From an uncultured Oscillospiraceae bacterium (GTDB taxonomy: Bacteria > Bacillota > Clostridia > Oscillospirales > Acutalibacteraceae), in NCBI GenBank assembly GCA_948471095.1, contig CAOKRG010000029.1:1-33551 (forward strand): a DNA stretch of 33,551 bases, given 5' to 3'. Below, in pieces: positions 7,942 to 16,760 of the stretch. Position 1 is the stretch's first letter. Every line of letters starts with the position of its first letter. Position numbers and translations under genes: made by a program. The notes under the pieces are model-generated. The model saw only the letters and a list, made by a program, of their open reading frames with translations, was not told where the DNA came from and did no database searches.

Positions 7942-8181
7942 TTATTGGGAGTGTCCAAGCGCGTATAGTTAAAGAAAAAGTTTGGTTAGTGAGCCATTAA
8001 AAGTTTCGTCCTTCTCGACTGCCGTCTCGGTCGGCGCTAAACGGTCGCCACTGGCGACCAGCGCCCTTTTCAAGAGGTGGACGAGTTATCCAAAGGATAA
8101 CTCGTGGGTTCTTAGGGGACTTCGCGAAGCGAACGTCATGAGCCCCTAAGCCGCCGGAGGCCAATTAACACTCCCCAATAA
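7942..8181. repeat. Mosaic repeat element, copy B (240 bp)
   Basis: Bounded by TTATTGGGAGTGT (7942-7954) and ACACTCCCCAATAA (8168-8181), which are near-perfect inverted repeats. Contains a 21-nt box (8014-8034) shared at 19 of 21 positions with copy C. A two-tier hairpin follows: GGCGCT (8033-8038)/AGCGCC (8060-8065) enclosing GGTCGCCA (8043-8050)/TGGCGACC (8052-8059). Next come ACGAGTTATCC (8081-8091)/GGATAACTCGT (8095-8105) and CTTAGGGG (8111-8118)/CCCCTAAG (8143-8150) enclosing TTCGC/GCGAA. It fills most of the 297-bp gap between rluB and the carboxypeptidase gene, and no protein gene is supported. Confidence 0.85.
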
Positions 8182-8207
8182 CCGCGCCCCTCGGCCCCTC
8201 CTATTCT

Positions 8208-9374
8208 CTATGCCTGGGGCAGCTCCCCCGCGAACCATCCGGTAATCCGATTCCACAGATTCTCCCAAAATCCCGGCTCCGGCGGCGGGGCGGAAACAGC
8301 CTCTCCGGCGTAGATGGGCACGGAAAACAGGGTTTCGCCGTCCACCTGGTACAACACCCGGCCCACCGGCTGGCCCGCCTCCACGGGCGCGTAGAGAAAG
8401 CGGGGGAGAAGCACCTCTCTGGACACGCTCTGGGCCTGCGCCTTGGGCAGCGTCATTTTGATGCCCTCCCCAGCCCGCAGAGGCGCGGCGTCCGCCGTGC
8501 CGCCAGCCACGGGCAGGCTTTCCGGCAGCTCCCCGCCGGTCAGGTCCACGGTCGCCGCCTGGTCAAAGCCATAGTCGAATAGGGCCATGTGGTCGTCCCA
8601 GTCGTCCGGGGCGTTCAGGGTAACGGCAATCAAGGTGGTGCCGTCCCGCCGGGCGGCGGAGACCAGGCAGCGGCCCGCCTTCTTGGTGAAGCCGGTCTTT
8701 ACGCCGATGCATCCCTCGTAAAGCCGGAGGAGCTTGTTGTGGTTGGCATAGCTCACCTTATGGGCCGGTTCCAAAAACTCCACCTGCCGGACCGGGCTGG
8801 CGGCAATGTCCGCGAAAGCGGGGCAGTCCAGGGCCTCCCGGGCCAGCAGGGCCATGTCGTAGGCGGTAGAGTAGTGCTCCTCGTCGTCCAAGCCGGAGGG
8901 GGTGACAAAGTGGGTCTCCTCCATGCCGGCCTCCGCCGCCCGGTCGTTCATCCGCTGGGCGAAGGCCTCCTGGCTTCCGTCCAGGAACAGCGCCGCCGCG
9001 TTGGCCGCGTCGTTGCCGGAGGCCAGCAGCATGCCCGCCGTCAGGTTGGACAGCGTCAGCCGGTCCCCGGCCCGCAGGCCCATGGAGGACCCCTCCACCC
9101 GCACCATCTCTTCGGTCACGGTCAAAGCCAGGTCGCCGGACCGCTCCGCCTCTTCCAGGGTGAGAAGGGCGGTCATAATCTTCGTGGTGCTGGCCATTGC
9201 CATCTGCCGGTGGGCGTCCTTTTCAAACAGGACGCTTCCATCGTCCCCGGAAATGAGCACAGCGCTCTGAGCGGAGACTCCGGGAGCCTCCGCCGCCCGT
9301 GCGGAGCGCGCCGGAACAGCCAGCACCGCCAGCGCGCACAGCGCAATCATAAAAATTTTCCCAATTCTTTTCAA
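8208..9374 (-). CDS. dacF: D-alanyl-D-alanine carboxypeptidase (DacF/PBP5-like, peptidase S11)
   Basis: 388 aa. It trims the terminal D-Ala of peptidoglycan pentapeptides outside the membrane. A signal peptide (residues 1 to about 27, ending ARA-AE) is followed by the penicillin-binding domain with S62-T-T-K65, S119-G-N and K226-T-G. After about residue 270 comes a PBP5-type beta domain, and a short C-terminal stretch FWENLWNRITGWFAGEL resembles the amphipathic membrane anchor of PBP5. The start is a TTG (9372-9374) with AAGGCGG 10 nt upstream; an internal ATG at codon 9 would shorten the signal peptide. DacF is sporulation-linked in Bacillus, and its place beside gerW fits, but a vegetative DacA role is equally possible. 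Confidence 0.9.
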   Translation of the reverse strand: MKRIGKIFMIALCALAVLAVPARSARAAEAPGVSAQSAVLISGDDGSVLFEKDAHRQMAMASTTKIMTALLTLEEAERSGDLALTVTEEMVRVEGSSMGLRAGDRLTLSNLTAGMLLASGNDAANAAALFLDGSQEAFAQRMNDRAAEAGMEETHFVTPSGLDDEEHYSTAYDMALLAREALDCPAFADIAASPVRQVEFLEPAHKVSYANHNKLLRLYEGCIGVKTGFTKKAGRCLVSAARRDGTTLIAVTLNAPDDWDDHMALFDYGFDQAATVDLTGGELPESLPVAGGTADAAPLRAGEGIKMTLPKAQAQSVSREVLLPRFLYAPVEAGQPVGRVLYQVDGETLFSVPIYAGEAVSAPPPEPGFWENLWNRITGWFAGELPQA

Positions 9375-9428
9375 TCCGCTTCACCCGCCTTGGTCCATAC
9401 ATATGCGGACAGGCGGCGCGATATGCGG

Positions 9429-9893
9429 TCAGGGCTCCTTGGGGGAGGGGGGAGCGTCCAGGCTTTCCACCATGGCGGCTTCCGGCACAGGCTCCTGGGG
9501 GGCGGGCTCTTCCGCCTCCTCCTTGCCTCGCTTCAAAAAGCCCTGAAGCATGTCCACAATGTCCGGGATTTTTTCCAGGGCCCGGTCTACCGGGCTGAAA
9601 TAGGGCTCGATCTGGATGACCCGCACATTACCGTTGCTGATGGAGAGAAAGGCCACCGGGCTGACGGTAATTCCGGCCCCGCTGCCTCCGGCAAAGAGCC
9701 CGGCCGCCGGCTGGGCCTTGGAGGGCAGGTCGCTTCCTCCGGCGGCAAAGCCGTAGTTGATCCGGGAGATGGGGATAATGGTGGTACCGTCCGGGGTGGT
9801 GACGGGCTCGCCCACCACGGTGTTTACATCCACCATCTGCTTGATCTTTTCCATGCTGGCCCCTAAAATCTCGTTGACTTTGTTTTGGCTCAT
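9429..9893 (-). CDS. ytfJ: GerW (YtfJ) family sporulation protein
   Basis: 154 aa. Recognised from NEILGASMEKIKQMVDVNTVVGEP, then TPDGTTIIPISRINYGFAAGG, a Gly-rich GLFAGGSGAGITVSPVAFL, and GNVRVIQIEP. In Bacillus subtilis YtfJ/GerW is made in the forespore and is needed for germination with some germinants. The acidic, Pro-rich C-terminal tail (EEAEEPAPQEPVPEAAM) is probably disordered. The ATG at 9891-9893 has AAAGGA about 9 nt upstream; a longer open frame upstream runs into the repeat region and is not coding. In the scpA-scpB-DUF2953-gerW order seen in other Clostridia it follows DUF2953; here repeats of about 500 bp lie between. Confidence 0.9.
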   Translation of the reverse strand: MSQNKVNEILGASMEKIKQMVDVNTVVGEPVTTPDGTTIIPISRINYGFAAGGSDLPSKAQPAAGLFAGGSGAGITVSPVAFLSISNGNVRVIQIEPYFSPVDRALEKIPDIVDMLQGFLKRGKEEAEEPAPQEPVPEAAMVESLDAPPSPKEP

Positions 9894-9983
9894 GAAACAG
9901 CATCCTTTCCAAAAGAAATAAAGATAGGGTCTATAGCAAATCAACACAAAAATAGTTAGAAAATACGAAGCCCCAAAATGATC

Positions 9984-10267
9984 GGGAGTGTCCAAAGGAG
10001 GCATTTTTAATGGGAGTGTTACGGAGTGGGGTCTCGCCTGCCGGCTCGGTCGGTTCGCGGCATAGTCTGCTGTACTTGGCAGGCCAAGTACCCGGCAGAC
10101 GCTCACCCTCCGGCGGCCAAGTTCATCAAAGATGAACTTGCGGGACTCATGACATTGGCTTCGCCAAGTTCCCCTGAGAACCCCGCCACTTTTGAAAAAG
10201 TGGACAAAACTTTTACCACTGCGTTTAAGAAGCTTTCTCCATATAAAACGCGCGTTTGGGCACACCC
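9984..10267 (+). repeat. Mosaic repeat element, copy C (284 bp)
   Basis: Starts GGGAGTGTCC (9984-9993) with a second GGGAGTGTTA about 30 bp in, and ends GGGCACACCC (10258-10267). Contains the 21-nt box (10033-10053), then a two-tier hairpin GTCTGC (10065-10070)/GCAGAC (10095-10100) enclosing TACTTGGC (10073-10080)/GCCAAGTA (10083-10090). Further on are CAAGTTCATC/GATGAACTTG with an AAA loop (10118-10140), TTGGC-TTC-GCCAA (10155-10167) and CCACTTTT-GA-AAAAGTGG (10186-10203). It lies in the 600-bp gap between DUF2953 and gerW, which holds no gene I can support. Confidence 0.85.
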
Positions 10268-10271
10268 AAAC

Positions 10272-10492
10272 GATCCCCCAGCCCATTCCTCCCACCCAGT
10301 GCGGCAGTGTAAAAGTTTTTGAAGATTGGTAAGGAACTTTTTTCAAAAAGTTCCTTACCCCGCCGGAGGCCTCAAGCCGCCAAGCCCCAAAATGATCCCC
10401 AGCCCATTCCTCCCACCCAGCGCGGCAGCGTAAAAAGTTTTTGAAGATTGGTAAGGAACTTTTTTCAAAAAGTTCCTTACCCCGCCGGAGGC
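10272..10492. repeat. 99-bp direct duplication, each copy with a 15-bp perfect hairpin
   Basis: Two near-identical 99-bp units, 10272-10370 and 10394-10492, each carrying GGTAAGGAACTTTTT-TC-complement (10328-10359 and 10450-10481), a CCCGCCGGAGGC end and AGCCCATTCCTCCCACCCAG. The linker contains AAGCCCCAAAATGATC (10382-10397), also found at 9968-9983 just before copy C, so duplication copied an outer flank as well. The second unit ends 2 bp before the DUF2953 stop codon. Confidence 0.9.
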
Positions 10493-10494
10493 AC

Positions 10495-16592: not shown

Positions 16593-16760
16593 GGAAGTGT
16601 CCACAGGGCGCAATTATTGAAGAGTAATACGGAGTGGCCTCCGGCGGCTTAGGGGCTCTGCCCCTAAGGACCCTGCTGCTTTTGAAAAAGTGGACAAAAC
16701 TTTTACTGTTGCACCCAGCGAGCTTTTCTCTTGTTAAAATGCATGTTTTGGACACTCCCC
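16593..16760 (+). repeat. Mosaic repeat element, copy D (168 bp)
   Basis: Ends are GGAAGTGTCC (16593-16602) and GGACACTCCC (16750-16759), inverted repeats that continue inward as GCA-rich stretches (GCATGTTTT on the right). Inside: TAATACGGAGTGG, CCTCCGGCGGC, a perfect 9-bp hairpin CTTAGGGGC-TCT-GCCCCTAAG (16648-16668), AAGGACCC, CTTTTGAAAAAGTGG and CAAAACTTTTAC, all shared with copies A and C. It fills the gap between lysC and the unknown gene, whose stop codon lies 7 bp from its right end. No coding content. Confidence 0.85.

Follow-up and report, generated by a model that had tools for sequence, protein, structure and literature searches.

How can two copies of one repeat keep their hairpins paired when the letters of those hairpins differ? 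The question is raised by a stretch of 33,551 nucleotides from an uncultured Oscillospiraceae bacterium (contig CAOKRG010000029.1 of assembly GCA_948471095.1), here called the window, in which two repeats, copies B and C, each carry a 21-nt box followed by a two-tier hairpin. A preliminary description of the window held that pairing in these hairpins survives without conservation of sequence, and attributed this either to a selected structure or to a template-driven mechanism that writes stems. The positions, boxes and stems that it listed for the two copies were all recovered in the sequence: the boxes (8014-8034 in B, 10033-10053 in C) share 19 of 21 letters; the stems are GGCGCT/AGCGCC and GGTCGCCA/TGGCGACC in B, and GTCTGC/GCAGAC and TACTTGGC/GCCAAGTA in C; and the exchange of TTCGC-GCGAA in B for TTGGC-GCCAA in C is present, as are the hairpins with AAA loops. 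The two letters by which the boxes differ (A..T in one, C..G in the other) are themselves a compensated pair, belonging to a hairpin within the box.

The likely answer is that the box opens a mobile palindromic hairpin unit, resembling the palindromic elements of Rickettsia, which in copies B and C is nested in a miniature inverted-repeat transposon, and which is kept foldable by selection together with template switching. Three observations carry this account. Firstly, fixed slots of the transposon hold the unit in some copies and lack it in others, and the units of two relatives and of viral contigs lie mostly outside the transposon. Secondly, it is a precise in-frame insert in phage genes of methyltransferase type. 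Thirdly, its stem letters vary while pairing and architecture persist. The phenomenon is larger in extent than is visible from the window alone. The unit would move through an enzyme that recognises its fold, probably as single-stranded DNA, which would place the fold under selection; both arms of a stem would change together when one arm of a hairpin serves as the template for its partner during replication; and recombination would exchange whole hairpin cassettes. A function for the host is most likely absent, the unit being selfish DNA.

The outer element was overlooked in the preliminary description, as were the nesting and the exchange of a limited set of cassettes behind much of the difference between B and C. 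Copies B and C, and a third copy at 16593-16759, are members of a single miniature-transposon family whose inverted ends read GGGAGTGTCCAAA...TTTGGACACTCCC. Such ends, at no more than one mismatch, occur 120 times in the bacterium's own genome (2.52 Mb in 83 contigs, Acutalibacter-like), and the reversed control gave none. The DacF protein of this genome has its closest named matches in Acutalibacter and other Oscillospirales. Target duplications were scored on 30 end pairs in fetched stretches, copy B lying outside these 30: nine pairs, copy C included, are flanked by an 8-bp duplication at no more than one mismatch (seven of them exact), and five others by a 9-bp duplication (two exact), against 0 of 200 re-paired flanks for either length. 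Both terminal inverted repeats (TIRs) and target-site duplications of fixed length, the marks of a miniature inverted-repeat transposable element (MITE), are thereby found. The empty form is about 160 bp long and has three hairpins: h1 (GGAGTGG/CCTCC), h2 (CTTAGGGG...CCCCTAAG) and h3 (CCACCTTTTGAAAAGGTGG). The nested unit has the layout T-CTC(hairpin 1)TCGGTC, followed by a closing stem GG...CC around at least one further hairpin; it is about 53-66 nt long, and longer where further hairpins have entered. In its Acutalibacter form the inner stem usually has 7 bp and closes a 3-nt loop, and a bulge is frequent on its 5' side. The window contains the following features.

7947..8175, minus strand: copy B, a composite miniature transposon read from its A end to its B end, with TIR GGGAGTGTCCAAG at 7947 and ACACTCCC at 8168-8175; the A end is shortened and there is no clear 8-bp target duplication.
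8013..8066, plus strand: hairpin unit of copy B in slot h3, consisting of T, box, class c hairpin and CCC end, 54 nt.
8014..8034, plus strand: box of copy B, with A:T as hairpin pair 5-12.
8043..8059, plus strand: 7-bp apical stem GGTCGCC/GGCGACC of copy B, with triloop ACT.
8081..8105, plus strand: AAA-loop hairpin cassette of copy B, ACGAGTTATCC-AAA-GGATAACTCGT.
8118..8137, minus strand: tip hairpin of copy B in slot h2, GACGTTCGCTTCGCGAAGTC, the C:G form of the swapped pair, with one bulged base.
9984..10267, plus strand: copy C, a complete miniature transposon with inverted ends at 9984-9996 and 10255-10267; its flanks AAATGATC and AAACGATC match over 8 bp with one mismatch.
10032..10108, plus strand: hairpin unit of copy C in slot h1, class a, with an extra hairpin in the apical loop, 77 nt.
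10033..10053, plus strand: box of copy C, with C:G as hairpin pair 5-12.
10065..10100, plus strand: stem GTCTGC/GCAGAC of copy C (10065-10070 and 10095-10100).
10073-10080 and 10083-10090, plus strand: hairpin TACTTGGC/GCCAAGTA, nested in the preceding stem.
10118..10140, plus strand: AAA-loop hairpin cassette of copy C, CAAGTTCATC-AAA-GATGAACTTG.
10151..10170, plus strand: tip hairpin of copy C, GACATTGGCTTCGCCAAGTT, the G:C form of the swapped pair.
16593..16759, plus strand: third transposon copy, without a box, its slots h1, h2 and h3 empty.

As DNA, copy B (7947-8178) folds with z = -4.24 and copy C with z = -4.63, and in each case 0 of 200 shuffles were equally stable. The flanks of copy B, TTATT on the left (7942-7946) and AATAA on the right (8177-8181) with one extra C between, nearly prolong its inverted ends, and so form an inverted rather than a direct flank repeat. 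Copy C is adjoined by two copies of another hairpin repeat (GGTAAGGAACTTTTTTCAAAAAGTTCCTTACC plus CCGCCGGAGGC) at 10265-10493.

The list shows that the two units with which the question began are not counterparts tier by tier. The B unit occupies slot h3 and belongs to class c; the C unit occupies slot h1, belongs to class a and has an apical loop that encloses a third hairpin, TACTTGGC/GCCAAGTA. Hence part of the apparently complete change of stems is an exchange of cassettes, and B and C differ mostly in carrying different cassettes from a genome-wide menu, although true changes of both arms are found within cassettes too.

The boxes are numerous. The window holds two box matches against a mean of 0.04 in 100 shuffles, and the own genome 219 at no more than three mismatches against one for a reversed control pattern, which rules out chance as the origin of the repeats. 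At no more than two mismatches, the box has one or more matches in 25 of 28 same-genus relatives, of which 17 have at least five and 11 at least 20, whereas three relatives have none; a genome from another family of the same order (G051) has 17. Within the one genus, copy number at this threshold runs from 0 (G010, G018 and G020) to 238 (G021).

Within the transposon, slots are found both with and without an insert. These counts come from fetched stretches, many of them selected for holding a box, and are not genome-wide ratios: slot h1 was empty in 41 cases and filled in 37, slot h3 empty in 46 and filled in 36, and slot h2 was filled by a box unit in eight cases and by a tip hairpin in 11, its 47 empty cases being an inflated number since the palindrome is scored on both strands. 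Several cassette classes share one slot, and a single class is found in several slots. The unit also occurs away from the transposon: inverted ends (no more than two mismatches) lie within 350 nt of the box for 66 of 129 boxes in the own genome, compared with 5 of 43 in the relative G021, 5 of 37 in G001, 0 of 50 in G014, and 0 of 9 boxes in viral stretches (one of these nine boxes being a chance match). In G014, one locus (L194, 1272-1660) holds a tandem array of box units, partly at 53-nt spacing, in which some loops contain another unit.

Filled and empty sites are found in phage genes too. Scans of viral contigs gave eight stretches with the box, 14 with a looser form of the box, and 16 with the third hairpin in its viral form, a query that leaves the box and middle hairpin free. 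Matches in L254, L267, L268, L270 and L272, and second matches in L253, L275 and L282, were judged to be chance in coding DNA and left out; L278 and L282 repeat other units. Of 17 third-hairpin matches, 15 distinct units remain. In all 15 the pairing persists: all 45 cells of the box pairs are Watson-Crick, with each of the three positions varying, and the middle hairpin is perfect throughout; its arms measure 5, 6 or 8 bp and show six different sequences. Two homologous phage frames, L257 and L260, differ by a 63-nt in-frame insert, present in the former and absent from the same site in the latter. L260 matches PF00145; the L257 frame, which can be aligned to it, matched no Pfam family. Similarly, L275 and L281, both C5 methyltransferases (PF00145), differ by an exact insert of 21 residues, and L281 bears a unit of its own elsewhere. 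This one gene family, in which three of the four members are C5 methyltransferases by Pfam, carries the in-frame unit at three different positions. In-frame insertion, by which elements like those of Rickettsia are recognised, is accordingly found in viral-contig copies, the copies in the window being intergenic. Matches covering 92% of the unit at 86% identity occur in two Ruminococcus phage records, and a weaker match occurs in a third record. In five other viral loci (L255, L273, L277, L279 and L280) a GGAGG motif lies on the opposite strand within 30 nt of the unit, as if in gene leaders. The whole of copy C gave no blastn match at E 1e-5 in plasmid and phage collections.

The claim that pairing outlasts sequence holds across many copies in four genomes of the genus (the own genome, G021, G001 and G014). 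Covariation was assessed over many copies against expectations from independence or shuffling, so that relatedness of the copies enters the counts. Box pair 5-12 in the own genome is Watson-Crick in 121 of 127 copies, with 59.4 expected if its two positions were independent; pair 4-13 is so in 113 of 127 (95.3 expected), a figure partly biased because the first loci were selected with those letters fixed. For pairs 5-12 and 4-13 respectively, the counts are 44 and 41 of 44 in G014 (30.9 and 25.5 expected), 39 and 41 of 43 in G021 (18.4 and 26.6), and 32 and 33 of 33 in G001 (22.5 and 31.1). The swapped pair of the tip hairpin is Watson-Crick in 66 of 70 copies, against 33.5 after shuffling, with 38 C:G, 27 G:C and five others, one of which is T:A. 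Among 24 copies, slot h2 itself has a pair that reads A:T in 13 cases and G:C in 10, and h3 has several covarying pairs in a noisier set of 87. Perfect apical stems were found in 53 of 56 class a, 49 of 51 class b, 26 of 27 class c and 12 of 14 class d copies from the four genomes; over these classes, 874 of 888 pair cells are Watson-Crick, with four G-T, seven A-C and three other combinations.

The frequency of G-T wobble pairs bears on whether a stem is selected as RNA. A structured leader or regulatory RNA, duplicated many times and covarying through selection on its transcript, would account for strong covariation in unlinked contexts and for a constant architecture; the GGAGG motifs opposite five of the viral units also speak for it, and the outermost tip pair, with ten G-T to three A-C among 70 copies, behaves like RNA. 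However, the apical stems contain fewer G-T than A-C cells and indicate no preferred RNA strand, some units lie in frame inside phage genes, and the placement of elements among genes is close to background. Among 35 elements in 433,551 bases, three overlap a predicted frame, two are at an edge, and the 30 that can be placed between genes, using gene calls from a simple script, fall into 20 tandem, seven divergent and three convergent gaps, the background being 125, 30 and 24 gaps of at least 60 bp. A functional RNA is consequently an improbable explanation. Nor did a known RNA family emerge, as Rfam 15 gave no match at its gathering score in the window, and only two sub-threshold, unrelated matches (E 4.5-4.6), in L256 and L257. 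The same counts bear on intrinsic transcription terminators spread by duplication, to which GC-rich hairpins in intergenic DNA would be suited: with only three of the 30 placed elements in convergent gaps, and some units inside phage open reading frames, this role was rejected and its probability is very remote. The earlier proposal of a selected structure hence has partial support: the fold is strikingly constant, but the rarity of apical wobble and the lack of a bias towards convergent gaps make no easy case for a selected RNA.

If not an RNA, the stems might be under no selection at all, with template switching alone keeping long hairpins perfect as they drift in concert. In replication template switching, a single event rewrites one arm from its partner, producing compensatory changes of several bases and inversions of loops, as described for the hairpins of RNA genes (PMC8794818). 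A few copies look like products of such events, the direction of change being judged from the other class c copies. Class c hairpins commonly have the sequence CGCT-GAAC-GGTCGCC-ACT-GGCGACC-AGCG, whereas that of L015 is CGCTGAACGGTCGCC-ACT-GGCGACCGTTCAGCG, with a perfect arm of 15 bp in which GTTC on the 3' arm is the reverse complement of the GAAC bulge, the arm being exactly reverse complementary to its partner as a template switch would leave it; L029, L033 and L037 have perfect 11-bp palindromes without the bulge. Both orientations of the loop occur in one slot, that of the AAGTTCATC hairpin (AAA in 12 copies, TTT in three, others in four), and wobble intermediates are rare in the apical stems, which likewise speaks for templating.

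Templating without selection should nevertheless erase bulges, and these are retained. The scan accepted 5' bulges of at most 6 nt and 3' bulges of at most 3 nt, and so leans towards the 5' side; beyond the bulge, 71 copies of the own genome, 30 of G021, 17 of G001 and 11 of G014 have an outer stem, and in 62, 24, 13 and 11 of these (110 of 129 in total) the 5' side alone is bulged, by 1, 2 or 4 nt. A triloop hairpin of at least 5 bp is present in 109 of 127, 37 of 43, 26 of 33 and 33 of 44 box copies of these genomes, in the same order; 83 of the 109, 30 of the 37, 21 of the 26 and 31 of the 33 have an inner stem of exactly 7 bp. The apical loop, moreover, is rarely inverted: none of the 41 class a or 31 class b copies in the own genome has AGT, the inverse of ACT, and overall AGT occurs in one of 97 apical hairpins there and one of 33 in G014. 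Nor do all parts of a stem drift, as pairs 1, 3 and 4 of the class b apical stem each show three pair types, but positions 2, 5 and 6 hardly vary. That stem length is so constant, as is the bulge where it is seen, therefore favours selection on the fold, and templating by itself is a rather unlikely explanation. The earlier suggestion of template-driven stem writing survives in part: a few copies appear arm-templated, but they resemble the template switching already described (PMC8794818), and do not call for a new mechanism.

If the fold is what an enzyme recognises, a precedent exists in the repetitive extragenic palindromic (REP) sequences mobilised by REP-associated tyrosine transposases (RAYTs), which are Y1 (HUH) enzymes. 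Like REPs, the units are short and palindromic, combining a conserved part with variable stems (PMC3733652), and the own genome has one Y1 match, in a locus (L217) that bears a transposon-end-like sequence with one mismatch at position 185. However, the Y1 matches, found in nine of 29 genomes, do not follow box copy number, being present in five of the 12 genomes with at least 20 boxes and four of the 17 with fewer; G014 and G024 have many boxes and no Y1 match, both assemblies being incomplete; and no box lies within the 18 fetched Y1/IS6 loci. A simple REP/RAYT system was therefore rejected, and mobilisation of the hairpins by a Y1 transposase in the manner of REPs seems quite improbable. 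The rest of the search, which covered four Pfam families of DDE type, found no PF00872 in the own genome, PF01610 and PF12762 in 0 of 29 genomes each, and PF13610 in five of 29, the own genome not among them, and so gave no partner for the transposon.

Several findings weigh against the preferred account of a mobile, fold-selected unit nested in a MITE. No mobilising enzyme was found in the families searched, namely Y1 and the four Pfam families. The search gave no orthologous site at which a stem had changed, and rewriting in place was thus never observed: the dacF family is present in 29 of 29 genomes, and the counterpart of the dacF locus in 26 of 28 relatives, some of which end at contig ends, has neither inverted end nor box, as was also found in five other records of this locus; a motif resembling AAAAGTTTYGTC is present at this counterpart in two of the 26. 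Among the 30 scored transposon copies, 16 have no duplication of 8 or 9 bp. The independence of unit and transposon is weaker in G021, where the B-end motif AAAAGTTTYGTC lies within 250 nt of 24 of 43 boxes (compared with 3 of 37 in G001 and 0 of 50 in G014), and where a related transposon with other ends may be the host; confidence in the account is slightly lowered by this result. Although inspection places the host sites for h1, h2 and h3 in hairpin loops, nesting in loops is modestly supported more generally, as stems of at least 7 bp flank the unit at a frequency of 0.13 against 0.04 in the own genome, with no enrichment in G014. A duplex-energy test for a host stem in the flanks gave little or no separation from controls, owing to pairing between the GGT and CCC ends of the unit itself. 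With regard to the fold, 42 of 247 box copies have no triloop hairpin of at least 5 bp, 99 of 247 fit none of classes a to d and so lie outside the apical-stem figures, and independent changes of both arms are estimated at about ten, far fewer than the cells counted, because copies descend from one another. Lastly, G002, G003, G019 and G023 have a single box match each, and the control pattern gives as many in some genomes.

A bolder version of the nested-unit account is possible, although short of probable. It is that the element is defined by its fold rather than its sequence, being recognised by shape (a 7-bp stem, a triloop, a 5' bulge and a closing stem beside CC) and placed with precision in the hairpin loops of transposons, in frame in phage genes, and in phage leaders, with stems continually rewritten from arm to arm so as to escape sequence decay, across Oscillospirales and their phages, by an unrecognised enzyme. 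The in-frame phage inserts offer clean pairs of filled and empty sites, and with them a route to the choice of target and to the enzyme. Copies numbering up to hundreds per genome constitute a natural experiment on the origin of compensatory changes, and the rare wobble intermediates of the apical stems, together with the templated appearance of L015, make templating and selection directly testable against each other.

Among the matches listed in titles and abstracts of the open-licence literature, no description of this hairpin-unit family appeared, although several known systems resemble it in part. Mobile hairpins are known in bacteria (PMC3116915), and the hairpins of REP families share a conserved tag while their stems change in a complementary way (PMC3733652). 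Inspection by eye showed no GTAG or CGTC tag in the unit, but at slot h3 a CGTC belonging to the transposon precedes the unit or hairpin; REPs, and REP doublets forming hairpins (REPINs), depend on RAYTs, whereas here the Y1 transposases do not track the boxes. The BOX elements of pneumococci are likewise modular composite repeats with variable internal modules, but their variation is in the tandem number of boxB, and words beginning covari- or compensat- do not occur in the available text of their description (PMC3049150). The GC clusters of yeast mitochondria are palindromic and mobile, merge and shuffle, and have a constrained hairpin (PMC4478555); these are mitochondrial, and the constraint described is fewer changes in stems than in loops, rather than changes of both arms. 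Template-switch mutations have been described for RNA genes (PMC8794818), and would here act on a repeat family. The outer element is like a MITE in being short, mostly intergenic and numerous, with inverted ends and, in some copies, target duplications, and differs in its interior, a chain of interchangeable hairpin cassettes of which some hold the box unit. Closest to the nested unit are the Rickettsia palindromic elements (RPEs), small mobile palindromes found in frame inside unrelated protein genes (PMC10969869). The likeness, one of description, lies in the small palindromic unit and its in-frame position in protein genes: RPEs are about 150 bp long and come from Rickettsia, whereas this unit is 53-66 nt long and comes from Oscillospirales and gut viral contigs, and, unlike RPEs as described, it keeps its fold as its stems change, and nests in transposons. 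Mobile elements are usually recognised by conserved sequence, whereas here it is pairing and architecture that are conserved, leaving many stem letters free. Integron attC sites, which are marked by a GTTRRRY core and an integrase, likewise conserve structure over sequence.

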